Assembly (NCBI RefSeq): GCF_014695715.1
Contig: NZ_JACJOT010000008.1
Coordinates: 434,001 to 498,000, forward strand
From: Microcoleus sp. FACHB-68
GTDB lineage: Bacteria; Cyanobacteriota; Cyanobacteriia; Cyanobacteriales; Oscillatoriaceae
DNA: 64,000 nucleotides
Direction of reading: 5' to 3'
Position 1 is the stretch's first letter, and each line of letters opens with the position of its first letter. The position numbers and the translations under genes are program-made. Below are positions 17,806-37,014 of the stretch, piece after piece. The notes beneath the pieces are model-generated. The model had not been told where the DNA came from, did no database searches, and saw only the letters and a program-made list of their open reading frames with translations.

Positions 17806-19056
17806 TTACACACAAGTGGCCAACGCTTGAGTGAGTTCTCCAGCATTTTGGTAGCGATGACTCGGTTTAGGTTCTGTTACCCGCTCGATTACCGCCCGTA
17901 ATTTTGGCGTGATCGTGGGCACAGTTTCCACATTAAATCGATAGTCATTGCCTTGCCGACTAAAAAACCTGTGAGGGCTTTCGCCGGTCAACAGAAAGAT
18001 CAGAGTCGGGCCAATTGCATAAAGGTCTGACTGGGTGAGCGGCTGACCCCGGTTTTGCTCTGGGGCACTGTAATCTGGGGCACCGATACGAGTACCTAAA
18101 GGCGTGCCAATTTCTTTAACTGCACCAAAGTCTAAAACCACAACGCGGTTGTCTACATGGCGAACCATCAAATTTGCCGGCTTAATATCCCGGTGAATAA
18201 TTGGAGGAGTTTGGCTGTGAATGTAGTCTAAAATGTCACAGGTTTGAATCATCCAGTCAACAGCTTGTGCCGGCGTCACAGGGCCGCGCTGGTAAACCCG
18301 CTTCTCTAAATCCTGACCGTGGATTAATTCCATTGCCAGGTATTTTTTATTACCTTCAACAAAAAAATCAAAAAATTGCGGAATTCCCGGATGGTTAAGT
18401 CCTTGGAGGATACGCGCTTCCCGTTCAAACAGTTCGCGGGCTTTGGCAACTTTTGCCATATCCGCATTCATCTCTTTGAGTACCAAAAGTTGAGGTTGGC
18501 GGGCAGAGTTAACTGTTTCCTGACACGCTAAATAAGTTGTGCCCATCCCGCCCTTTCCCAGAGTACGCAAGACCTGATACTGGTGGATCGTCCATTCAAC
18601 TTTAATTGGTTGACCGCAGTGGATACAAAACAAGTTCCCGACTGGATTACCGGCATGAGTACAATTATTTGCAGACGTACCTGCTGCCGGTGAGGGCGTT
18701 CCTTGCTGGACTACCGTTTCGTTTTGAACTTCCAACTTCAGCCGAGGGCCGCCCGAAGCCAGCTGGATCACCGCGCCATCCGAAACTAGCCCTTGCGACA
18801 TTAAAGTGCCATCAACAAACGTGCCATTTGTGCCCTTATTAACCAGTACCCACATCCCACCGGCACCTAAACGAAGTTCCAAATGCAGCCGGGAGACTAG
18901 CAGATCGTGCAGAATTACCTGATTGTCAGGAGACCGGCCAATGCGGATAACCGTCTCGTTCTCAAACTGCCACTGTTGCAGTGGGATTTGTTTTTCGGGA
19001 TGTAAAAGGGTGAGAGTTAACAACGCTATAGTCCTAGACTCAATAAACTTTCTCAA
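17806..19056 (-). CDS. FHA-domain serine/threonine protein kinase
   Basis: Hanks-type kinase combining phosphothreonine recognition and phosphorylation. Domains in order: FHA (about residues 34-105, with RIGRSPDNQV and NKGTNGTFVDG), a zinc-ribbon-like segment (132-148, Cys...CIHC), then the kinase domain (about 160-416) with GKGGMGTTY, Lys194, HRD at 288-290 and DFG at 309-311. All catalytic residues are present. No transmembrane segment. The annotated start is TTG. An alternative TTG at 19023 would align the N-terminus (TLTLLHP) with the paralogous FHA protein at 39024, so about 11 residues are uncertain. The neighbouring PP2C phosphatase on the same strand is a likely functional antagonist. 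Confidence 0.93.
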   Translation of the reverse strand: MRKFIESRTIALLTLTLLHPEKQIPLQQWQFENETVIRIGRSPDNQVILHDLLVSRLHLELRLGAGGMWVLVNKGTNGTFVDGTLMSQGLVSDGAVIQLASGGPRLKLEVQNETVVQQGTPSPAAGTSANNCTHAGNPVGNLFCIHCGQPIKVEWTIHQYQVLRTLGKGGMGTTYLACQETVNSARQPQLLVLKEMNADMAKVAKARELFEREARILQGLNHPGIPQFFDFFVEGNKKYLAMELIHGQDLEKRVYQRGPVTPAQAVDWMIQTCDILDYIHSQTPPIIHRDIKPANLMVRHVDNRVVVLDFGAVKEIGTPLGTRIGAPDYSAPEQNRGQPLTQSDLYAIGPTLIFLLTGESPHRFFSRQGNDYRFNVETVPTITPKLRAVIERVTEPKPSHRYQNAGELTQALATCV

Positions 19057-19405: not shown

Positions 19406-21598
19406 TTAAAATTCCCGCTTGCTGGGTTGAACCAGCGCCCGAATCAGGATAGCGGTGATATTGTCGTGGCCATTATGCTGATTAGCAAGATTGATCAGTT
19501 CACTGACTCCTTGTTCCAAACTAGCCTCATAACGAAGCAAGGGTTCTAGATGAGTGGATTTGTGGGTTTCCAGCAAATCATTATCCGTAAGTCCGTCTGA
19601 TGCCAGGATCAGCAACGTGTCTTCGTTGAGTTCTAAGAACTGCACATCAGGATGAACGAAATCCTCGTCTCGTGGCCCTAGGGCTTGCGTGAGTTGATAA
19701 GCATCAGGGCGAGAGTAGGCAGTTTCCGGATCGATACCCCGCTTAATTTCCCGCTGACCGACTTCGTGATCAACCGTAACTTGCCTGAGTCCCTGCCGGC
19801 GGCTGAGACGGTAAAGCCGGCTATCTCCCACATGGGCAACCGCAACTTGGGTATCTTGCACTAACACCAAGACTAAGGTGGTGCCCATCCGGCCACTACC
19901 AGAACGCACTTCTTTTTGATTGACATCAAAAATAGCTTGGTTTGCCAGCAACACTGCCTCACGAATGGTCGCTTCCTTCGGGAGTTGGTCTTGCCAGTGA
20001 GTTTGAAAATACTGCCTTAGGGTTTCAACCGCTTGGGCGCTGGCAACTTCACCGCCGGCGTGTCCCCCCATCCCATCACAGAGAATATAAAGGCATCGGG
20101 CACGAACGGCGCGGCCTAAAGGGCTTTCTATCGTAGAGATATTCGTTACAATCCCGTAGCAGTCTTCATTGTGAGCGCGTTGCCGGCCTACATCAGTAGC
20201 CCCGGCACTTTGGAGATTGACCAATTGCATAGGTAAAACCACCGTAGGCATATCTTCATCATCGTCATCCGCATCCACCGGCACAGGTGCAGAAGCGGTT
20301 TCAATTTCCTCGGCGATCGCGACTAAACGACCGCGCAACTCTTCAACAGTGAGGATCACACCTTCCTTGCAATCTAGCAGCAACTGGGTTATCGATCCCA
20401 GTTGAGTACGCTGGGATTGAGAAAATAACATCTGCCACAAGTCCCCTAAATCTGACAGCGGCAAGGAAACATCAGATTTTTCACAATATAAACGTTGTAA
20501 ACAGAGATTGCGATCCTCATTCACCCGGAGATTAGTCACCTCTAGCAGGCTGCGCCGGCAGTGCCAAGGTTCTAATGCTGCCCACAGTTCCGTCATTTCA
20601 TACAGCCACTGCAATAACTGGAGGGGGAGAATTTCATCACGGCCCCACTCGGCTAACAGCAAAGGTAAATCTGAACGATCTTCCAGCAACACCACCGTCT
20701 GGCCGTTTTGCTGCCAAGCATCGTGAATGGCTGGCAAGTTAAGGTCAAACTGCGTCTGTAAGGCCAAATAAGGCTGAGCTGGCACGGGAATTGCTAAGTC
20801 CGCCAGGGTTGGGGTAATCGCTGGGGGTTCCGACGGCGGTCTGGATTGAACTGCCCCACCTGATCTAACGAGGGCAGCCAAAGGAGACATCTGGAAAGGC
20901 TGACAGTCTAGGACTTTTACCACCGTTTCACTGGTGCCGGCTTGGATTTGCGGGAGAGATTTTAGGAGTTTGTAGCGTTGTTGGGGATCTAAATATTCTG
21001 AGGTGAGAAGGAGAGTGCTTGCCTCTGAGTCATCTTCCGGCATTGGATCAGCGGCTTCTTGCAGTGGGTTGAGAGGGGGCACTTCTGCTGTATCAGCCCT
21101 GACGCTTTCGGGCGTAGGATGGATTGAATTCACCGGCTCAGTCACGGCTTCTGGGACAGTGGTTGCGGGGGTTGACTCGGTTGCTGGATCTGGAAACGAT
21201 GAAGCAGGAAAGATTTCATTTTCCTCGATGTCGTTCACCGGCAGTTGACTTTCCCATTCATCAATACCGGCATCGGGTGTCAATGCTGGTTCTTGAGCGG
21301 TGCTGACCACGAAACTTTCAGGCGCTTGGCTTGCCGCTAGAGGGATTGTTTCAGCCCCGCTGGGGGTTGAACTCGCAATGGGTGCAGAAGTCTGTGTTGC
21401 CGCTTTAGCCGCCTCTTTTGAGATGATAGCCAACCATACCGTTCCTGCCTCAGCACCGCAATTCGGGCAGTTTTGGGCACTTAAAGCAACTTGGCTTTGA
21501 CACTGGGGACAATTCTTGGAACTTAAGGAAGTGCCGCATTTTTGACAAAACTTATTCGTATTCGGGTTTTCAAACTGACATTGGGGACAGACAAGCAT
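19406..21598 (-). CDS. PP2C-family protein phosphatase with N-terminal zinc ribbons
   Basis: Mn2+/Mg2+-dependent Ser/Thr phosphatase, probably the partner of the adjacent kinase. The first 50 residues form a double zinc ribbon (CPQCQFEN, FCQKCG, CPQCQSQ, CPNCG). A long Pro/Ala/Glu-rich low-complexity region follows (about 70-200). A middle region (about 215-445) resembles a degenerate kinase-like or regulatory fold and has no clear motif. The C-terminal PP2C domain starts at about 465, with DVGRQRAHNEDCYG, CDGMGGHAGGEVAS, VAHVGDSRLYRL and ILASDGLTDN, so the metal-binding Asp residues are present. 730 aa; ATG start. Confidence 0.93.
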   Translation of the reverse strand: MLVCPQCQFENPNTNKFCQKCGTSLSSKNCPQCQSQVALSAQNCPNCGAEAGTVWLAIISKEAAKAATQTSAPIASSTPSGAETIPLAASQAPESFVVSTAQEPALTPDAGIDEWESQLPVNDIEENEIFPASSFPDPATESTPATTVPEAVTEPVNSIHPTPESVRADTAEVPPLNPLQEAADPMPEDDSEASTLLLTSEYLDPQQRYKLLKSLPQIQAGTSETVVKVLDCQPFQMSPLAALVRSGGAVQSRPPSEPPAITPTLADLAIPVPAQPYLALQTQFDLNLPAIHDAWQQNGQTVVLLEDRSDLPLLLAEWGRDEILPLQLLQWLYEMTELWAALEPWHCRRSLLEVTNLRVNEDRNLCLQRLYCEKSDVSLPLSDLGDLWQMLFSQSQRTQLGSITQLLLDCKEGVILTVEELRGRLVAIAEEIETASAPVPVDADDDDEDMPTVVLPMQLVNLQSAGATDVGRQRAHNEDCYGIVTNISTIESPLGRAVRARCLYILCDGMGGHAGGEVASAQAVETLRQYFQTHWQDQLPKEATIREAVLLANQAIFDVNQKEVRSGSGRMGTTLVLVLVQDTQVAVAHVGDSRLYRLSRRQGLRQVTVDHEVGQREIKRGIDPETAYSRPDAYQLTQALGPRDEDFVHPDVQFLELNEDTLLILASDGLTDNDLLETHKSTHLEPLLRYEASLEQGVSELINLANQHNGHDNITAILIRALVQPSKREF

Positions 21599-22035: not shown

Positions 22036-25000
22036 TTAGGTTAGGGGCAGTTCTACCGTAAAGCAAGTTTGACCGGCAGCACTTCCCACCTGAATCGTGC
22101 CCCCCAAATGATCGATCAGTTTTTGCACCAGCGCTAAGCCCAAGCCGGTGCCGCCCTGTTTCCAAGGATCTGCACTCGGAACCCGATAAAACTTCTCGAA
22201 AATATGGGGCAGCTCAGATGCAGGAATTTCCGTTCCGGAATTAGTAACCTTTAACTGCATTTTTCCACTTTCCACGCCGGCACTGAGTGTGATTTGTTCG
22301 TGGGGCGGAGTATATTTGCAGGCATTATTTAACAATTCTGCCAGAATGCGCTCCAGACTGGAAGCGTCAGACATTAAAGGGGGTAAGTTCGCTGCTAAGT
22401 GAACCGCTAACCTTTGGTGCCGATTGCGAGCTCGATCTAGAAAAGGCCGCACGATTTGAGGAATCCACTCCTGAAGCTCAATCCTTCCTAATGCCAACGG
22501 CTGCACACCGGCATCAAGTCGCTGCAAATCCAGCAAATCATTAATTAAACTAATTTCTCGTTCGCACTCGTCATGCAAGATTTGGAGGTAACGAGCGGTT
22601 TTCTCATTGCAAAAATTTTCAGGGGATGGACTTACGGCTTGGTTGCCGGTTTTGAAGGCTGAAAGTTTGCAGCCTCCAGCGATCTCCAACATCTGAATTG
22701 CCATTTTCATGTTAGACATGGGTGTTCGCAATTCATGGGAAACTGTGCTGAGAAACTCATCTTTGAGCCGGCTAAGTTTTTGCAGTTCGTCCACCTGCGC
22801 TTGAGCCGCCTGATATAGTCGGGCTTGACGCAGGGCGATGGCGCATTGAGAAGCCACCTGCCCCGCCAAGAGAATTTCCGTGTTGCTAAACACCCGGCTG
22901 GCTTTATTTAAGACAGCCAGGTGGCCGATCGTGCCGCGATCATCAAAAATCGGACATAGCAGTTTAGCCGATAGGGGCTGGGCCAAATCGGGACAGGCGA
23001 GATCGCCCAACTCAGCGCCTTGAAACAAATGATAGCGTCCAGATTCATAGGCGGCAAAATACTGTCCATCTAAGAGCTGCTCATACACCGCCGGCGCATC
23101 TGCCATTGGCAGAATTTGCCCCAAAGCTGAACCTAAAGCCGCTTGGGTATACTCATAGCTAATACTGGCAGTGGTGCGCTCACTGTTATACAGAGCCGCA
23201 CAACAGTAATCCACCTTGAGCACACTGGCAACTTCCTGTACAGCAGTTTGCAAAATCTGGTTTTCATCCAAGCTTTCGCGCACCCGTTCGGTAATTCGCT
23301 TTAGCACCTCTGCAAAGTTCAGCGACTCTTGTAATTCTCCGGTGCGCTCCTGTATTTGACCCTCAAGCTGAGTGTTAAGCAACTGCACCTGCTGGTACAG
23401 TTCTGATTGCTGGATGGCAATTCCCACCTGGATTGCTAGGGACTTGAGCAGATCAATTTCCAGCTGCTGCCACCGGCGCGGCGCACAGCAGTGATGGGCG
23501 ATCAACAATCCCCATAAGTTTTCGCCCTGCAAAACCGGCACGACTAAGTTGGCTTTCACCTGAAACTGACTGAGTAAATCGATGTAACATTGTTCTAAAT
23601 CTGTAGTCGCCAGATCCTCAATCGTTCGGACGCGACCTTGTTTGTAGCAATCCACATAAGTCTGGGCAAAGCAGGGGTCATAAATAACGGTTCCTAGCAG
23701 CGGTATGCACTGCTCATCAACTGACTCTACCGCGACTACCCCACTCCAGTTTGGCTCAAAGCGGTAAATCAGCACTCGGTCGGTTGCCAAAAATTGCCGC
23801 ACTTCGGCAACGGTGGTGTTCAGAATTTCATCCAGGTTAAGAGATTGGCGGATGCGCGTTTGCACCTGCCCCATCAGCCGCTCTCGTTCGCTTTGATGTT
23901 GCAAAGCAACTTCAGCAGCTTTACGCTCTGTGATATCCGTAATCATCTTCAAGGAGCCAGCGTATTGCCCCGCTGCATCGAAGATGGGATTGGCGGAGAT
24001 GATCGCCCACATTTCGGAGTCATCTTTGCGGCGAAGTTTAAGATCGTAGCGCTCTTCGATTCCTTGCCGGCGGTTCTCTAAATAATGCTGGGCGCTAACG
24101 CGGCTCGACTCGTCCACAAATGCCAAAAATGGCTGCCCTAACATTTCTCCATCCGTCCAGCCCAGCATTTGCGCCATCTGAGGATTGACAAAATTGGTAT
24201 TTCCTTGAGCATCCAGCACCCAAACGCCTTCGGTTGTGGTTTCCACGATCCGGCGATACCGTGTTTCGCTTTCTCGCAGCGCTCGTTCGGCTTGCCGGCG
24301 GGCGAAGTAGCTGGAAATCATCTCTGCAATGACGCGCAGCACACGAAGGTCTTCACCGGACCACTGTCGGCATTTTTCTGTATCGTCAAACCCAATAAAT
24401 CCGAGTAGTTCGCCGCTATCAAATTTTATCGGTACGATGAGCAGCGAGCGAACGCTTCGGGCGTGCAGAATCGCTTTTTCTGAGCCGGCAAGATCCGGTA
24501 AAGTTTCCACATCGCTAATTTCGATGGTTTGAGCGCTCACCAGCTGCTTCATAAACCAGGGAAATAAGGCGCTGTCCTGATTTTGGAAGTTGTCGATCTG
24601 CGATGGTGTCCGCTCGTCACACCACTCACAGGTATTATCCACTTTGGTGGTGTTTTCTCGAAATTGGAAAATATAGGCGCGATTGGCTACCACCGCTTTT
24701 CCTAACATTTGGAGGATTAGATTTAAATCGGTGTCGCCGGTGGAGACAAACAATCTCGATACCTGTGCCAGTGCCTCTTCGAGTCCTAAGCGATGTCGCA
24801 GTCCCTCTTCTGTTTGCTTGCTTTCTGTAATTTCAGTAAAGTAAACCGCCAGTCCATCGGCAGCCGGATAGGCGTGAACTGCAAACCAGGCACCCAGCGG
24901 CGGATAAAATTCTTCAAATTTTACGGCGACTTGTTCGCTTAAAGCTTTATGGTATTCCACATAAAAGGTTGAGCCGACTGTTTCGGGGAACTTATCCCAC

Positions 25001-28000
25001 AACCGCTCACCGATAAGTGATTCGCCCCGTTGGTGCAGCAGCTGTTCGGCTTCCTGATTGACGTAGGTGAAGCGGAACTGGTGATCTACAGCAAAAAAGG
25101 CGTCGGTGATGCTTTCAAGGATGTTAATTGTTTGCCGGTGAGAGCGCTGCAATTCTTGTTCGGCTTGCTTTCGCTCTGTCACATCGCGAGCAACTGCATA
25201 AATAATGTGTTCTTCAAAACAAACGGTGGAATTCCACCCAAGCCACTTATAAGAGCCATCCGCGCAGCGATAGCGATTCTCAAAAGCGAGGGTATTGCTT
25301 CCACTGGCTAATTTTGCCGTTTCCGCTAAGGTTGCGGCGCGATCGTCTGGATGGACAAATTCGATAAATGGTTTGGCTTGCAGTTGTTCTTTACTCCAGC
25401 CTAAAACTTTTTCCCAGGCGGGATTTAAGCGTTTGAAGTAGCCATCGAAGCCGGCGATACACAGCATATCGAGGGAAAGGGTAAAGAAACGATCTCGCTC
25501 CTCTTCTGCTCGCTTGCGCTCGGTTATGTCCTTCTGGACGCCGACAAAGTTAACCACTTGACCGGCAGCATCCCTGACCGGCGAAATGTATAATTCATTC
25601 CAAAATAATGTGCCATCTTTACGGTAATTTTGCAGGATGGCGTGACACTCTCGTTGCTCTGCCATTGCTCGCCGCAGGGGTTCGAGGGCAGCTTGGTCTC
25701 GATTGCTTCCCTGCAAGAACCGGCAATTACGACCAATAATTTCAGCTTGTTTATAGCCGGTTATGCGTTCAAAACCAGGATTGGCATAAATAATCGGGTT
25801 CTCTGGCTGGGTGGGATCGGTGATGATGATGCCGTTACTGCTGGCGGTGATTGCCCGTTCTAGCAAGTGCCGGTGTGCCTCTGATCTATTGCGTTCGATC
25901 GCAGTGGCTAACACATTGGAGATCGCTTGCAGAAAGTAAATGTCATCTTGGGTGAAGGTGGGCGGATGGGTAGTCTCTGGCTCTAAAACTTTTAAGTGAG
26001 ATTGTGAGACTTGTGACTCTATGTGAGAACCTTCGTCTTCTTGACCAAGCTTGACCTGTTTTCCCCGCTTCTGATTGCTGCCGGCAATTACGCTGATGCC
26101 GCTGACTGCGCTGTTGCCATGAAGCAGGGGGGGTGAACTGAATCGCGTTTCGGTACGCAAGGTTTCCATCGCCGGCTCGCTTGAAAGTAAAGTGCTGCCG
26201 GCATCGCCATACTCTCCGGTTTCTTCCTGGCAACCGACACCGGCTTTCAGTAGCACGGCTTTACCATCGGGTCGTAATTCTAAAATTTTGCAAGACTCTA
26301 CCGCTAATATTTGGGTCACTAAGATAACTGCTTGCTCCATCAGCCTATCTAAAGGGCTGCCGGCTAGTGCTAGCTGACCTAATTGAGCGACGGCGGCTTG
26401 CTGGCGGGCGTGTACTTGTAAAGCTGTAATTAAGTCTGTCTTTTCTGCTTCTGAGCGTTTGCGCCCGGTGATGTCGCGCAGCACAACTTGAATTGCCGGT
26501 TGGTTTTCATAGGTGATGGGAATGGCGGCAACTTCTACATCTACAGTTGACCCGTCGAGGCGGATGAATTGTTCTTCCATGAGCGGTACTCCCTTAACTT
26601 CTTCGAGAATTTGCCGCATTCTGGCCTTAAAGTTCTCTTGGTCGTCTGCATGGACAAAATCTAAGAGGGATCTTCCGAGCAACTGGTTGGTATGACTTGC
26701 TCCCAGGAGTTTAGCCCCAGCAGAGTTTATACAAACAATCTTTCCGTTTTGATGAATCCAGATCGCCTCGAATGACAGCTCCAGTAGCTGCTGGTAACGA
26801 TCTTCGCTTTCTCGCAGCGCCTCCTCTACGTGGCAGCGCTCGGTGATGTCAATGCCGGTACAGATTATGTAGTTAAGCTCGCCGTTTGCATTGTGCAAAG
26901 CTGTTTTAGTCCAAGCGATGCGCCGGTGAGTTCCATTTTTTGTGAGTAATACACTTGCGCTATCCCTTTGGAGAGGTTGATCTATCGGCTCGGCTCGGTA
27001 CGCATCCCGTTGGGTTAAAAGTGAGAGATGTTCGGCTTTTCTATTTTCTGAGTTTTCTGCTTCAGGTACTGAGAATAATTCAGAGAAAAGCCGGCCTTGC
27101 ACTTCTTCAAATTGATAACCGATTGTTGTCAAGCTCGTTTGATTGCACAGTAATATCCGTTCTTGCCGGTCAAGAACGACTACGTTTGGCTCTTTTATTC
27201 CTCCTAGCGATTCGCCGGTTGGGATGTTATCAGTATTGCCGGCAGGTAAAATTGCCCATTGGGGGATGACTTCTAACAAGCGAGAGACAAACTCAGGAAC
27301 TAAGATATCGGTGCTATCGAGAAGCGTAAAAACAAATTGGCGAGCTTCTACCAGTGCTGCCTCTGCTTGCTTGCTAGCAGTTATATCTTCACAAACCAAC
27401 ACAATAACTGAGGGGATATTGCTCTGCGAGTTTGAGTGCGAACCGATAGGATCACTTGCTAGACGTGGCAATGAGCCAATTTCTTTGGCAAGCGCATTTT
27501 GAGTTTGATTTTTTGACAGATGCAACTCGATATTACAGTTAGCGCAAAGCTGCTCTAAGCAATCGCAGTTTTCATATAATTGCTCGTTAATGGTTAGCTT
27601 TACTGAGGTTCTAACCCATAAGATGCTGCCATCTTGCCGCATCAGCCGAAATTCCCATTCACCCTCCGCAGCTGGCATCTGCCACCAATCTGCAAAGGTT
27701 GATCGCACCTTTGCTTGGTCTTGGGAGTGAATCCGCTCAAAAAGTGAGCTACACTTTAATTCCTCAACGCTATAACCCAAAAGGGCTGCACCATTGTGAT
27801 TGACCGCCAGCACCACGCCAGCTGAGTTTAAGGTGAAGTATATGGCAGGACTATTTTCGTACAGGTTGCGATACCACTCTAATTCTGCTCTCCTGCTGCC
27901 TCGTGCTTCTTCCATTTGCCGAAAATTTGCATTCTCTTGGGCCGGCTCAAACGGCGCGGCGGGCGCTTCATTTTGAGAGTGGCCGTATTTAAAAAACGGG

Positions 28001-28014
28001 GAGTTGGGGACCAT
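22036..28014 (-). CDS. Giant multi-PAS/GAF histidine kinase with LOV and bilin-GAF-like domains
   Basis: A 1992-aa soluble sensor kinase; GGAG lies 7 nt before the ATG. Approximate order: PAS (45-215, with an insertion), PAS (280-395), PAS (405-520), GAF (540-710, with an insertion), LOV-type PAS (720-835), PAS (840-950), PAS (960-1065), GAF (1080-1240), PAS (1250-1365), phytochrome-like GAF (1385-1540), GAF (1575-1730), HisKA with phospho-acceptor His1760 (STVSHELRTP), and HATPase (1870-1992; NNACKYTP, GTGLGLALV). The LOV domain has the flavin-binding GRNCRFLQ with Cys764. The GAF at 1385-1540 has IYRF, VVAVES and Cys1476 followed by Tyr. There is no receiver domain and no neighbouring response regulator. 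It is a probable light/redox sensor whose output partner is unknown. Confidence 0.92.
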   Translation of the reverse strand: MVPNSPFFKYGHSQNEAPAAPFEPAQENANFRQMEEARGSRRAELEWYRNLYENSPAIYFTLNSAGVVLAVNHNGAALLGYSVEELKCSSLFERIHSQDQAKVRSTFADWWQMPAAEGEWEFRLMRQDGSILWVRTSVKLTINEQLYENCDCLEQLCANCNIELHLSKNQTQNALAKEIGSLPRLASDPIGSHSNSQSNIPSVIVLVCEDITASKQAEAALVEARQFVFTLLDSTDILVPEFVSRLLEVIPQWAILPAGNTDNIPTGESLGGIKEPNVVVLDRQERILLCNQTSLTTIGYQFEEVQGRLFSELFSVPEAENSENRKAEHLSLLTQRDAYRAEPIDQPLQRDSASVLLTKNGTHRRIAWTKTALHNANGELNYIICTGIDITERCHVEEALRESEDRYQQLLELSFEAIWIHQNGKIVCINSAGAKLLGASHTNQLLGRSLLDFVHADDQENFKARMRQILEEVKGVPLMEEQFIRLDGSTVDVEVAAIPITYENQPAIQVVLRDITGRKRSEAEKTDLITALQVHARQQAAVAQLGQLALAGSPLDRLMEQAVILVTQILAVESCKILELRPDGKAVLLKAGVGCQEETGEYGDAGSTLLSSEPAMETLRTETRFSSPPLLHGNSAVSGISVIAGSNQKRGKQVKLGQEDEGSHIESQVSQSHLKVLEPETTHPPTFTQDDIYFLQAISNVLATAIERNRSEAHRHLLERAITASSNGIIITDPTQPENPIIYANPGFERITGYKQAEIIGRNCRFLQGSNRDQAALEPLRRAMAEQRECHAILQNYRKDGTLFWNELYISPVRDAAGQVVNFVGVQKDITERKRAEEERDRFFTLSLDMLCIAGFDGYFKRLNPAWEKVLGWSKEQLQAKPFIEFVHPDDRAATLAETAKLASGSNTLAFENRYRCADGSYKWLGWNSTVCFEEHIIYAVARDVTERKQAEQELQRSHRQTINILESITDAFFAVDHQFRFTYVNQEAEQLLHQRGESLIGERLWDKFPETVGSTFYVEYHKALSEQVAVKFEEFYPPLGAWFAVHAYPAADGLAVYFTEITESKQTEEGLRHRLGLEEALAQVSRLFVSTGDTDLNLILQMLGKAVVANRAYIFQFRENTTKVDNTCEWCDERTPSQIDNFQNQDSALFPWFMKQLVSAQTIEISDVETLPDLAGSEKAILHARSVRSLLIVPIKFDSGELLGFIGFDDTEKCRQWSGEDLRVLRVIAEMISSYFARRQAERALRESETRYRRIVETTTEGVWVLDAQGNTNFVNPQMAQMLGWTDGEMLGQPFLAFVDESSRVSAQHYLENRRQGIEERYDLKLRRKDDSEMWAIISANPIFDAAGQYAGSLKMITDITERKAAEVALQHQSERERLMGQVQTRIRQSLNLDEILNTTVAEVRQFLATDRVLIYRFEPNWSGVVAVESVDEQCIPLLGTVIYDPCFAQTYVDCYKQGRVRTIEDLATTDLEQCYIDLLSQFQVKANLVVPVLQGENLWGLLIAHHCCAPRRWQQLEIDLLKSLAIQVGIAIQQSELYQQVQLLNTQLEGQIQERTGELQESLNFAEVLKRITERVRESLDENQILQTAVQEVASVLKVDYCCAALYNSERTTASISYEYTQAALGSALGQILPMADAPAVYEQLLDGQYFAAYESGRYHLFQGAELGDLACPDLAQPLSAKLLCPIFDDRGTIGHLAVLNKASRVFSNTEILLAGQVASQCAIALRQARLYQAAQAQVDELQKLSRLKDEFLSTVSHELRTPMSNMKMAIQMLEIAGGCKLSAFKTGNQAVSPSPENFCNEKTARYLQILHDECEREISLINDLLDLQRLDAGVQPLALGRIELQEWIPQIVRPFLDRARNRHQRLAVHLAANLPPLMSDASSLERILAELLNNACKYTPPHEQITLSAGVESGKMQLKVTNSGTEIPASELPHIFEKFYRVPSADPWKQGGTGLGLALVQKLIDHLGGTIQVGSAAGQTCFTVELPLT

Positions 28015-32419: not shown

Positions 32420-34690
32420 ATGACAATCAGTCCTCCGGAGCGAGAGGCAAAAAAAGTCAAGGTTGTTGTCGATAAAGACCCAGTTCCTACATCCTTTGAG
32501 CGGTGGGGAAAACCCGGTCACTTTGATCGCACCTTGGCTAGAGGACCCAAAACCACAACCTGGATTTGGAATCTACACGCCCTCGCCCACGATTTCGACA
32601 GTCATACCAGTGACTTAGAAGACGTATCCCGCAAGATATTTAGTGCCCACTTCGGTCACTTGGCTATCATCTTTATTTGGTTAAGCGGTGCTTATTTTCA
32701 CGGCGCTCGTTTCTCCAACTATGAAGCTTGGCTGACTAACCCGACCGGCATTAGGCCGAGCGCCCAAGTGGTTTGGCCAATCGTCGGTCAAGAAATTTTG
32801 AACGCTGACGTGGGAGGTGGCTTCCACGGGATTCAAATTACATCCGGCTTGTTCCAAATTTGGCGGGCTTCTGGCATCACCAACGAATTCCAGCTGTACT
32901 GCACCGCTATCGGCGGTTTGGTCATGGCTGCGCTGATGCTGTTCGCCGGTTGGTTCCACTATCACAAACGCGCTCCCAAACTGGAATGGTTCCAGAATGT
33001 GGAGTCGATGTTGAACCACCACTTAGCCGGCTTGCTGGGTCTGGGCTGCCTGTCTTGGGCCGGTCACCAGATTCACGTCGCTCTGCCAATCAACAAGCTG
33101 CTTGATGCTGGGGTTGATCCTAATCAAATTCCCCTGCCTCAAGAGTTCATCTTGAACCCTAGCTTGATGACAGAGCTATATCCCAGCGTGGATTGGGGTT
33201 TCTTCAAGGGTGTAATTCCCTTCTTTACCCTCAACTGGGGCGCATATACAGACTTCCTAACCTTCAAGGGCGGTTTAAACCCTGTCACTGGCGGTTTGTG
33301 GCTGTCGGATTCGGCGCACCATCACCTGGCACTGGCAGTGCTGTTCATTATTGCTGGCCATCAGTACCGGACTAACTGGGGCATTGGTCACAGCATTAAG
33401 GAAATCCTAGAAAACCACAAAGGCCCCTTCACTGGAGAAGGCCACAAAGGTCTCTATGAAGTCCTCACCAGCTCTTGGCACGCTCAGCTAGCCATTAACT
33501 TGGCAATGTTGGGTTCTCTGAGCATCATCGTGGCGCATCACATGTATTCGATGCCGCCCTACCCCTACATCGCAACTGACTATGCGACCCAGCTGTCCAT
33601 ATTCACACATCATATGTGGATTGGTGGGTTCTGTATTGTTGGGGGCGCAGCTCACGGTGCCATCTTTATGGTGCGTGACTATGACCCAGCCAAAAATGTC
33701 AATAATTTGATTGATCGGGTGATCCGTCACCGAGATGCGATCATCTCTCACCTCAACTGGGTGTGCATGTTCTTAGGCTTCCACAGCTTCGGGTTGTACG
33801 TTCATAACGACACCATGCGGGCTTTCGGTCGTCCTCAAGATATGTTCTCCGATACCGCAATTCAATTGCAGCCGGTGTTTGCCCAGTGGGTGCAAAACAT
33901 CCACACCTTGGCTCCTGGCAATACCGCTCCGAACGCACTGGAACCCGCTAGCTATGCTTTCGGCGGTGGCGTGATGGCAGTTGCCGGCAAGGTCGCAATG
34001 ATGCCGATTGCTCTGGGAACCGCTGATTTCATGGTGCACCATATCCATGCGTTCACCATTCACGTTACAGTTCTGATCCTGCTGAAGGGTGTGCTGTTTG
34101 CCCGTAGTTCCCGCCTGATTCCTGACAAGGCGAATTTGGGCTTCCGCTTCCCCTGTGATGGACCCGGACGGGGTGGCACCTGCCAAGTTTCTGGTTGGGA
34201 CCATGTCTTCCTAGGTCTGTTCTGGATGTACAACTCCATCTCTATCGTGATTTTCCACTTTAGCTGGAAGATGCAATCAGATGTGTGGGGCACTGTTGAT
34301 CCAGATGGCAGCATCTCGCACATTACCGGCGGTAATTTTGCACAGAGTGCGATCACCATTAATGGGTGGTTGCGTGACTTCCTCTGGGCACAAGCTTCTC
34401 AGGTGATTCAGTCTTACGGAACGGCACTCTCTGCATACGGCTTGCTGTTCCTAGGCGCTCACTTTGTCTGGGCATTCAGTCTAATGTTCCTGTTCAGCGG
34501 TCGCGGCTACTGGCAAGAACTGATTGAGTCGATCGTTTGGGCACACAACAAGCTCAAAGTCGCCCCAGCCATTCAACCCCGCGCTCTGAGCATCATTCAC
34601 GGTCGCGCTGTAGGGGTAGCTCACTACCTCTTGGGAGGAATTGTCACGACATGGGCATTCTTCCTAGCTCGCATCATTTCTGTTGGATGA
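32420..34690 (+). CDS. psaA: Photosystem I P700 apoprotein A1
   Basis: Core subunit of photosystem I. With PsaB it binds P700, the primary acceptors, most antenna chlorophylls and the FX 4Fe-4S cluster. The 756-aa product has the expected length and eleven transmembrane helices. Landmarks include the N-terminal [20 protein letters not shown], many His ligands, and the FX-binding loop [15 protein letters not shown] at about residue 575. GAGGAG precedes the ATG. psaB follows after 95 bp, so the two form an operon. Confidence 0.99.
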
Positions 34691-34709
34691 GAGCGATTGT
34701 AGATGTACG

Positions 34710-34756
34710 GATTTTGGATTAGGGTTCAAGCGATCCCTAATCTAAAATCCAAAATC
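34710..34756. repeat. Imperfect inverted repeat in the psaA-psaB spacer
   Basis: GATTTTGGATTAGGG (34710-34724) is complementary to CCCTAATCTAAAATCCAAAATC (34735-34756), apart from a 7-nt bulge in the second arm. It would form a hairpin in the psaAB mRNA, a plausible processing or partial-termination element. The GATTTT(A/G)GATT words recur in other spacers of this window. Confidence 0.65.
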
Positions 34757-34785
34757 TCAAGTCCCCGCGAGAGTTAGAAGGACCT

Positions 34786-37014
34786 ATGGCAACAAAATTC
34801 CCAAAATTTAGCCAAGACCTGGCGCAAGACCCAACAACACGCAGGCTATGGTACGGGATAGCAACAGCCCACGACTTTGAAAGCCACGACGGCATGACAG
34901 AGGAGAATCTTTACCAAAAGATATTCGCCTCACACTTCGGTCACCTGGCAATCATCTTCCTGTGGACTTCGGGTAGCCTGTTTCACGTAGCATGGCAAGG
35001 CAACTTTCCGCAGTGGGTAAAAGACCCGCTAAACGTGAGGCCAATCGCCCACGCAATCTGGGACCCACAATTCGGCGCACCGGCAGTCGAAGCATTCACC
35101 CAAGCCGGAGCATCAAACCCAGTGAACATCGCCTATAGCGGTGTATACCACTGGTGGTACACAATCGGGATGCGGACAAACAACGACCTGTATCAAGGGG
35201 CAGTATTCCTACTGCTGCTATCAGCCGTATTCCTGTTCGCAGGGTGGCTGCACCTGCAACCAAAATACAGACCATCCCTAGCCTGGTTCAAAAACGCAGA
35301 ATCGCGACTGAACCACCACCTAGCCGGATTGTTTGGCGTCTCATCCCTAGCCTGGACAGGACACCTAGTGCACGTCGCCATCCCCGAAGCACGCGGACAG
35401 CACGTCGGCTGGGACAACTTCCTAACCACCCTGCCGCACCCAGCAGGACTAGGTCCATTCTTTAGCGGGAACTGGGGCGTATACGCCCAAAACCCAGACA
35501 CAGCAGGACACGTATTCGGAACCACACAAGGAGCCGGCAGCGCCATCCTGACATTCCTGGGCGGATTCCACCCGCAAACAGAATCCCTGTGGCTGACCGA
35601 CATCGCCCATCACCACCTGGCGATCGCAGTGATCTTCATCATTGCCGGTCACATGTACCGCACAAACTTCGGCATCGGTCACAGCATCCGCGACATCCTC
35701 AACACCCACCGGCCCCCAGAAGGCACCCCCTTCGGCGGACGCTTGGGAGACGGACACAAAGGACTGTACGACACCTACAACGAATCGTTGCACTTCCAGT
35801 TAGGCATCCACCTAGCAGCATTAGGCGTCGTCACCTCCCTCGTCGCGCAGCACATGTACTCGCTGCCGCCCTACGCCTTCATGGCCAAAGACTTCACCAC
35901 CCAAGCCTCCCTGTACACCCATCACCAGTACATCGCAGGCTTCCTGATGGTCGGAGCCTTCGCCCACGGCGCAATCTTCTGGGTCAGAGACTACGACCCA
36001 GCAGCCAACCAAAACAACGTCCTCGACCGCGTTCTGCGGCACAAAGAAGCGATCATCTCCCACCTGTCCTGGGTCTCGCTATTCCTGGGCTTCCATACCC
36101 TAGGCTTATACGTCCATAACGACGTCGTCGTCGCCTTCGGCACCCCAGAAAAGCAAATCCTGATAGAGCCGGTGTTCGCCCAATGGATTCAAGCAGCCCA
36201 AGGCAAAGCCCTCTACGGCTTCGACGTGTTGCTGTCCAACCCAGATAGCCTCGCCACCACCGCTTGGCCCAACTACGGCAACGTGTGGTTACCCGGCTGG
36301 CTAGATGCGATCAATAGCGGCACCAACTCCCTGTTCCTCACCATTGGCCCTGGAGACTTCCTCGTCCACCACGCCTTCGCCCTCGGTTTGCACACAACGA
36401 CCTTGATTCTCGTCAAGGGAGCATTGGATGCCCGTGGCTCGAAGTTGATGCCGGACAAAAAAGACTTCGGATACGCCTTCCCCTGCGACGGACCCGGACG
36501 CGGCGGCACCTGCGACACCTCAGCCTGGGACTCATTCTTCCTGGCCATGTTCTGGATGCTCAACACCATTGGTTGGGTCACCTTCTACTGGCACTGGAAG
36601 CATCTAGGAATCTGGCAAGGAAACGTGGCTCAGTTTAACGAGTCATCAACGTACCTGATGGGTTGGCTGCGTGACTATCTGTGGCTGTATTCAGCCCAGA
36701 CGATCAACGGTTACACCCCTTATGGGATGAATAATCTGTCGGTCTGGTCTTGGATGTTCCTGTTCGGCCACTTGGTGTGGGCGACCGGCTTTATGTTCTT
36801 GATTAGCTGGCGTGGTTATTGGCAAGAGTTGATCGAAACCCTGGTGTGGGCACATGAACGCACACCTTTGGCGAACTTGGTTCGCTGGAAGGATAAGCCC
36901 GTGGCCATGAGTATTATTCAAGGTCGTCTGGTGGGCTTGGCTCACTTCACGGTGGGTTATGTCCTCACTTATGCGGCGTTCTTGATTGCTTCGACTGCAG
37001 GTAAGTTCGGTTGA
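34786..37014 (+). CDS. psaB: Photosystem I P700 apoprotein A2
   Basis: Second core subunit of photosystem I, partner of PsaA. 742 aa, normal for the family. It starts [20 protein letters not shown] and carries the FX loop [15 protein letters not shown] at about residue 564, as in all PsaB. From the start to about 36600 the third codon positions are dominated by A and C (few T), unlike psaA and unlike the last 400 bp of the same gene. The protein itself looks entirely normal. GAAGGA precedes the ATG. A T-tailed hairpin follows the stop. Confidence 0.99.

Follow-up and report, generated by a model that had tools for sequence, protein, structure and literature searches.

Reactive-cysteine LOV domains are found in Brucella LOV-HK, where the domain is coupled to a histidine kinase, and in YtvA-type proteins, and to our knowledge neither of these kinds of LOV histidine kinase carries a bilin sensor. 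Natural fusions of a blue-light sensor and a bilin sensor have been described, such as Ppr, in which photoactive yellow protein (PYP), a bacteriophytochrome and a kinase are combined (PMC5812497), and dualchrome 1, which combines a cryptochrome and a phytochrome (PMC11879098). Giant multi-GAF proteins that sense several colours are also known, for example PtxD (NpF2164) (PMC5812497). In addition, there is precedent for the integration of two inputs in one kinase: a dual-sensor histidine kinase follows OR logic (PMC8584932), and the engineered kinase YHF, which carries a LOV domain and a haem-PAS domain in tandem, integrates its inputs cooperatively (PMC6798134). In this study, a histidine kinase gene from Microcoleus sp. 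FACHB-68 is described, in which a LOV domain and a cyanobacteriochrome (CBCR) GAF domain are encoded in a single open reading frame (ORF). The gene lies in a stretch of 64,000 nucleotides (contig NZ_JACJOT010000008.1, positions 434,001 to 498,000), hereafter the window. The product is probably a multi-sensor histidine kinase in which blue light is read through two photochemistries, one for the blue dose and one for the balance of blue and green.

LOV and cyanobacteriochrome domains of the kinase

The kinase ORF (22036-28014, reverse strand) is open over all of its 1992 codons, and an in-frame stop sits two codons upstream of its ATG. A first-pass annotation of the window had placed a LOV domain and a bilin GAF in one kinase of 1992 amino acids; this core observation and its coordinates hold, and the distance between the two cysteines, given as about 710 residues, is 712 residues from Cys764 to Cys1476. 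Domain labels were assigned with Pfam on slices of the protein, except for LOV and the CBCR, which were labelled from PDB and NCBIfam searches. The features that carry the pairing are:

25495..25857, reverse strand: LOV domain (residues 720-840), from PDB, NCBIfam and model fold matches
25723..25725, reverse strand: Cys764, the adduct-forming LOV position, from the sequence; a cysteine here in all 25 LOV and CBCR proteins discussed below
23395..23862, reverse strand: CBCR GAF (residues 1385-1540), from PDB search, alignments and model fold matches
23584..23589, reverse strand: canonical Cys1476 (23587-23589) followed by Tyr1477, from the sequence; His in the ortholog L185
23668..23679, reverse strand: DXCF motif (Asp1446-Pro-Cys1448-Phe) with the position of the second, photolabile cysteine, from the TePixJ alignment

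Residues 761-769 read GRNCRFLQG, which contains the LOV motif GXNCRFLQ with its reactive cysteine, and the downstream LOV motifs NYRKDG, FWNE and FVGVQ are all present. The Asn and Gln positions of NYRKDG, FWN and GVQ are presumably flavin contacts. The first-pass annotation had the GRNCRFLQ motif and Cys764 (25723-25725) at the right positions and also named a flavin-contact pattern, and it had suggested comparing the domain with LOV profiles. Two NCBIfam models match residues 705-845, YtvA_fam (3.6e-49, 167.5 bits) and BluLightHisKinLov (3.2e-42, 144.6 bits); both scores lie under the cut-offs of these models, 250 and 450, respectively, which are meant for whole proteins, whereas a single domain was queried here. 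The best PDB match of the same segment is at 4.8e-38, and the 60 matches listed of 143 (at 1e-8) appear, judging by the entry names, to be LOV entries throughout. The AlphaFold2 model of the domain (32 sequences) has a mean predicted local distance difference test score (pLDDT) of 91.7. Of its 537 fold matches at 1e-3, the 50 listed are all titled LOV; the top ones are Meiothermus MrLOV, short LOV proteins and an RNA-binding LOV receptor, and the first nine have template-modelling (TM) scores of 0.85-0.89. Among PAS domains, residues 720-840 are nearest to LOV in both sequence and fold, and the domain is predicted to bind flavin mononucleotide (FMN) and to form an adduct at Cys764.

The GAF segment (residues 1375-1545) matches PDB entry 6oap best (8.1e-60), which we take to be the protein of the OR-logic dual-sensor kinase mentioned above. 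Among the 60 PDB matches listed of 104, the best 22 appear to be CBCRs, fluorescent proteins derived from CBCRs or PAS-less cyanobacterial phytochromes, and the remaining 38 are at 2.8e-10 or weaker. The phytochrome-like or CBCR-like GAF with Cys1476 that had been annotated is supported by these matches to CBCRs, and the E-values of the LOV and GAF assignments exclude chance. The GAF model (mean pLDDT 90.3) also has 6oap as its best fold match (TM score 0.90, 53% identity), and comparison with the blue form of TePixJ (4glq) gives a TM score of 0.80 and a root-mean-square deviation of 1.2. A second cysteine, Cys1448, absent from the first-pass annotation, sits 28 residues before Cys1476, and both cysteines align with the TePixJ entries 6p58, 2m7u, 4fof and 3vv4. 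Judged by its sequence, the domain is of the CBCR type, since its nearest relatives are CBCR GAFs, the canonical cysteine is present and PHY is absent; by its motif, it is classed as a dual-cysteine DXCF CBCR. A red/green (XRG) CBCR, a class defined by the WXDXXL motif (PMC11284453), was also considered and was rejected, because the window protein reads I-Y-D-P-C-F where 6bhn has W-E-D-T-H-L and WXDXXL is missing.

In CBCRs of the DXCF type, the second cysteine bonds to C10 of the bilin, and the domain typically switches between a dark state that absorbs blue and a photoproduct that absorbs green, with photoproducts that range from teal to orange (PMC6628166; PMC11284453). The dark state of the window GAF would therefore be expected to absorb blue and its photoproduct green (teal to orange). 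Since the LOV domain and a DXCF GAF would both absorb blue in the dark, the integration of two colours proposed in the first-pass annotation has to be read differently: LOV and a CBCR-type GAF with their chromophore cysteines are present, but given the DXCF motif the pair would be blue plus blue/green. The source genome has one heme oxygenase match and a single match to ferredoxin-dependent bilin reductases, PcyA (359.9 bits vs a cut-off of 206), so phycocyanobilin can be made, and the GAF is predicted to bind a bilin.

The residue after the canonical cysteine is Tyr in the window kinase and His in L185, its syntenic ortholog. Tyr is also found at this position in miRFP670nano, a biliverdin-binding CBCR-derived protein, and the two best sequence matches of the GAF, 6oap and miRFP670nano, are without the second cysteine. 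These likenesses would fit a CBCR that has no blue/green switch, because Tyr1477 makes it retain phycocyanobilin or accept biliverdin, and that senses longer wavelengths and forms with LOV the true two-colour pair of the first-pass annotation. Such a sensor seems quite improbable in view of Cys1448, which lies within DPCF, a tetrapeptide identical to that of TePixJ. Tyr after the canonical cysteine is also not rare: among 60 Cys-bearing GAFs (dual-cysteine and canonical-only) from ORFs without LOV, it is found in 18, several of them dual-cysteine, next to His in 40 and Leu in 2. In the 22 Cys-bearing LOV and CBCR proteins of the survey below, the residue is His in 20, Gln in one (L126) and Tyr in the window kinase.

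The pairing in other genomes and its history

A LOV-led search covered 291 genomes of the order and gave LOV matches at 1e-36 in 165 of them. From the matches listed, 60 regions were fetched (4 from the source genome), mostly with open frames of at least 1000 amino acids, by which short LOV ORFs were under-sampled. A CBCR profile, built from hits to the GAF of the window kinase, separated the first 154 loci by a clean gap in score (at least 142.7 vs at most 80.6; judged on those loci only), and a CBCR GAF was found in 16 of the 142 LOV ORFs among them (possible duplicates kept in, the window ORF excluded). A second sampling, led by the window GAF as a DXCF query, added further loci. Together, 96 distinct CBCR GAFs were obtained: 25 in ORFs with LOV, 65 in ORFs without LOV and 6 undecided, where the ORF ran off the locus. 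The 25 distinct LOV and CBCR proteins, the window kinase included, come from at least 15 of the 291 genomes and from six families. With these numbers the pairing is not unique, and the earlier description of the combination as unusual holds only weakly. In the source genome, six LOV matches at 1e-36 and at least 12 CBCR-grade GAFs were observed, and only one of the five LOV ORFs read there, that of the window, contains a CBCR.

The LOV cysteine and HATPase_c are present in all 25 proteins, and LOV is always N-terminal to the CBCR, at a distance of 8 to 538 residues, although these proteins are related and not independent. Their last 450 residues contain HisKA in 19 cases and a Response_reg receiver in 10. 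Both GAF cysteines are present in 22 and neither in 3, and the canonical cysteine alone was not observed; in the LOV-led sample alone, with the window added, the corresponding counts are 14, 3 and 0. Besides the window kinase, the LOV cysteine and both GAF cysteines occur together in L185 and in 20 further proteins. The ratio of DXCF to canonical-only GAFs is 22 to 0 with LOV and 47 to 13 without (Fisher p 0.016), and Tyr follows the canonical cysteine in 1 of 22 with LOV vs 18 of 60 without (p 0.017), both for related rows under DXCF-led sampling. The apparent preference of LOV for DXCF partners, and against Tyr, is not claimed here, because the GAF sampling was DXCF-led and the rows are related.

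Several of these proteins have other arrangements. In L110:5312-8941 and L114:5456-9079, open frames of about 1210 amino acids, LOV lies 9 residues from a DXCF CBCR, which is the tightest spacing seen with all cysteines present. In L030:9275-14884, L107:2510-8122 and L118:6275-11884, LOV is followed after 8 residues by a GAF of CBCR grade that has an insertion and lacks both cysteines, and the bilin sensor may now be without pigment there, beside an intact LOV motif. Compact kinases with LOV near the N-terminus and a DXCF CBCR were observed in L180, L182, L190, L177 and L229 (open frames of 811-829 amino acids; 811 in L180 and L182, 829 in L190).

The flanking genes of the window kinase (a pseudouridine synthase, PP2C, an FHA protein kinase and others) recur in two genomes of the same genus, G069 and G047. 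G069, the genome of L015 (Microcoleus vaginatus WJT46-NPBG5), carries the ortholog L185, an open frame of 1733 amino acids that is 87% identical over residues 480-1992 and 69% over residues 1-237 and is without residues of about 238-479; PAS 2 and PAS 3 are mostly unmatched in both relatives. L185 keeps the LOV cysteine and both GAF cysteines, and its LOV domain is 94% identical to that of the window with Cys764 and the flavin-contact motifs conserved. In G047, the syntenic gene (L184:8159-13091) is broken into at least 4 ORFs, its DXCF motif reads DPCL, and tblastn at 1e-10 gave no match to residues 723-766 of the window kinase, Cys764 included. Two of the three congeneric genomes have therefore retained the pairing, and one has lost it. 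The broken locus, with its LOV cysteine region unmatched, would also fit a kinase gene that is decaying and non-functional in the lineage of the window, but this is very improbable for an uninterrupted ORF of 1992 codons that encodes the H, N and G2 boxes and whose ortholog L185 is an open frame that is 87% identical over residues 480-1992.

A tree of 90 GAF rows was made, with the 6 unknown rows excluded; its bootstrap had not settled and it carries a long-branch warning. On this tree, the LOV label needs 7 changes, and well supported branches force at least 6 of these. Of the 25 LOV and CBCR rows, 20 belong to a single supported group of 26 rows; outside it are the window with L185, the pair L106/L119, and L125. 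A single clade of all LOV rows and the broken locus L184, a constraint defined by domain content and tested after the tree had been seen, was rejected (p of the approximately unbiased test 3.9e-5), and a clade of the window trio and L125 was not rejected (p 0.44). Repeated gain and one gain with several losses both fit the tree and cannot be told apart on it.

The window kinase also matches CBCR kinases of its own genome that have no LOV, from residue 1239 approximately (L207, 49%) or 1360 approximately (L187, 59%) to about 1990. This suggests that the part with the CBCR, GAF and histidine kinase is a cassette that has been joined to various N-terminal arrays. On this basis, the CBCR could be the working photosensor in a cassette shared with paralogues, and the LOV-PAS array a passenger or a sensor of redox state or a ligand; the CBCR is near the kinase and LOV is about 920 residues away. 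We regard this as unlikely, as both the window kinase and the ortholog retain Cys764 and the flavin-contact motifs, and their LOV domains are 94% identical. It is conceivable, though less likely than not, that the fusion of LOV and a DXCF CBCR into a functional unit has occurred repeatedly, that the kinase computes the blue dose conditioned on spectral shade, and that in the window lineage the His/Tyr exchange beside the bilin cysteine shifts the comparison colour away from that of the sister species. There would then be two blue dark states with different clocks: the decaying flavin adduct would count blue photons, and the bistable bilin would compare blue and green.

Kinase architecture, neighbouring genes and proposed mechanism

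From the N- to the C-terminus, the order in the kinase is PAS, PAS, PAS, GAF-like stretch, LOV, PAS, PAS, GAF, PAS, CBCR GAF, GAF, HisKA and HATPase_c. The features besides LOV and the CBCR are:

27370..27888, reverse strand: PAS 1 (slice of residues 43-215), Pfam PAS_3, 2.3e-13
26815..27231, reverse strand: PAS 2 (slice of residues 262-400), Pfam PAS_4, 6.1e-12
26455..26823, reverse strand: PAS 3 (slice of residues 398-520), Pfam PAS, 2.3e-14
25909..26409, reverse strand: GAF-like stretch (residues 536-702), its GAF nature a reading of the sequence, with no Pfam match at 1e-3
25135..25488, reverse strand: PAS 4, Pfam PAS_3, 9.9e-15
24790..25152, reverse strand: PAS 5, Pfam PAS_4, 1.1e-15
24280..24777, reverse strand: GAF 2, an ordinary GAF, Pfam GAF, 9.7e-11
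23896..24288, reverse strand: PAS 6, Pfam PAS, 4.4e-17
22801..23352, reverse strand: GAF 3, an ordinary GAF, Pfam GAF, 2.6e-10
22507..22764, reverse strand: HisKA with H box SHELRTP and His1760, from Pfam and the sequence
22042..22368, reverse strand: HATPase_c with N box NACKYT, variant G1 box NSGTE and G2 box GGTGLGL, from Pfam and the sequence

HisKA with its H box and HATPase_c with its N and G2 boxes identify the protein as a histidine kinase. Neither a PHY nor a receiver domain is among the 14 Pfam families that match the whole kinase, and both a knotted phytochrome (PAS-GAF-PHY), for the missing PHY, and a hybrid histidine kinase, for the missing receiver, were rejected. Some 920 residues separate LOV from the H box; the CBCR is close to the kinase, as the next but one sensor before HisKA. 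Downstream on the same strand are genes for an FHA-domain protein kinase and a double-zinc-ribbon PP2C phosphatase (17806-19056 and 19406-21598), and this FHA kinase and PP2C order beside the sensor kinase is the same in both syntenic relatives. Two psaA/psaB-type photosystem I genes (Pfam PsaA_PsaB) lie on the opposite strand at 32420-37014, about 4.4 kb beyond the kinase start.

In the blue-light kinase proposed here, LOV would bind FMN, and the Cys764 adduct, which would decay in the dark, would report recent blue irradiance. Phycocyanobilin, which may be isomerised to phycoviolobilin, would be attached to the CBCR at Cys1476, and a bond between Cys1448 and C10 would give a violet/blue state in the dark. 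Blue light would convert the CBCR to a state that absorbs green (or teal to orange) and the second colour would reverse this, so that the domain would report, with memory, how blue compares with green. The two signals would travel along the helical PAS/GAF spine to the dimeric HisKA, with LOV as a distal modulator and the CBCR as the second sensor before HisKA, and the output would be phosphotransfer to an unlinked response regulator.

Several observations weigh against this proposal. The G1 box reads NSGTE (22228-22242), with Asn in place of Asp, which is usual at this position, though not universal, among histidine kinases; other ORFs of the loci sampled also have N-type G1 boxes (NSGTE, NTGIE and NTGVE). 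A scan of ten neighbouring genes gave no receiver match at 1e-6. In L110 and L114, the LOV domain reads GVH where the window has GVQ, and L164 and L214 differ at the residues next to the LOV cysteine (Asn and Arg), so LOV may not work alike in all relatives. Tyr1477, in place of the His usual in the LOV and CBCR set and present in the ortholog, may alter the colour or the chromophore. Furthermore, one congener carries a broken copy at the syntenic locus and can therefore dispense with the function.

Comparison with described photoreceptors

No kinase with both a LOV domain and a CBCR was described in the portions of the open-licence literature covered by the search (including PMC7504144, PMC8846402 and PMC4284465), and a prior description is possible. 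In such a kinase, one protein may read the amount of blue and also blue relative to green. With LOV and CBCR kinases, the combination of two photosensors that differ in lifetime could be tested directly within one kinase; the compact members (811-829 amino acids) could be expressed whole, and the kinases could serve as natural two-input optogenetic parts. If the recurrent choice of DXCF partners were true in an unbiased sample, it would point to a shared task of judging blue against green, for example in mats or crusts.

Compared with the engineered YHF, the window kinase is natural; YHF is artificial and its second input is oxygen. PtxD obtains its colours from bilin GAFs, and LOV is not mentioned in the passage of PMC5812497 that describes it. 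In Ppr and dualchrome 1, other blue sensors are joined to phytochromes, not LOV to a CBCR. The dual-sensor histidine kinase of entries 6oap, 6oaq and 6ob8 has the closest solved GAF and also directs two inputs into one kinase, but according to PMC8584932 and the entry titles its second input is phosphorylation and not LOV, and its GAF is without the DXCF cysteine. TePixJ and other DXCF CBCRs share with the window GAF the DPCF motif, a canonical cysteine 28 residues later and the CBCR fold. The TePixJ entries are named methyl-accepting chemotaxis protein, whereas the window GAF is part of a LOV-bearing kinase and has Tyr after its canonical cysteine.

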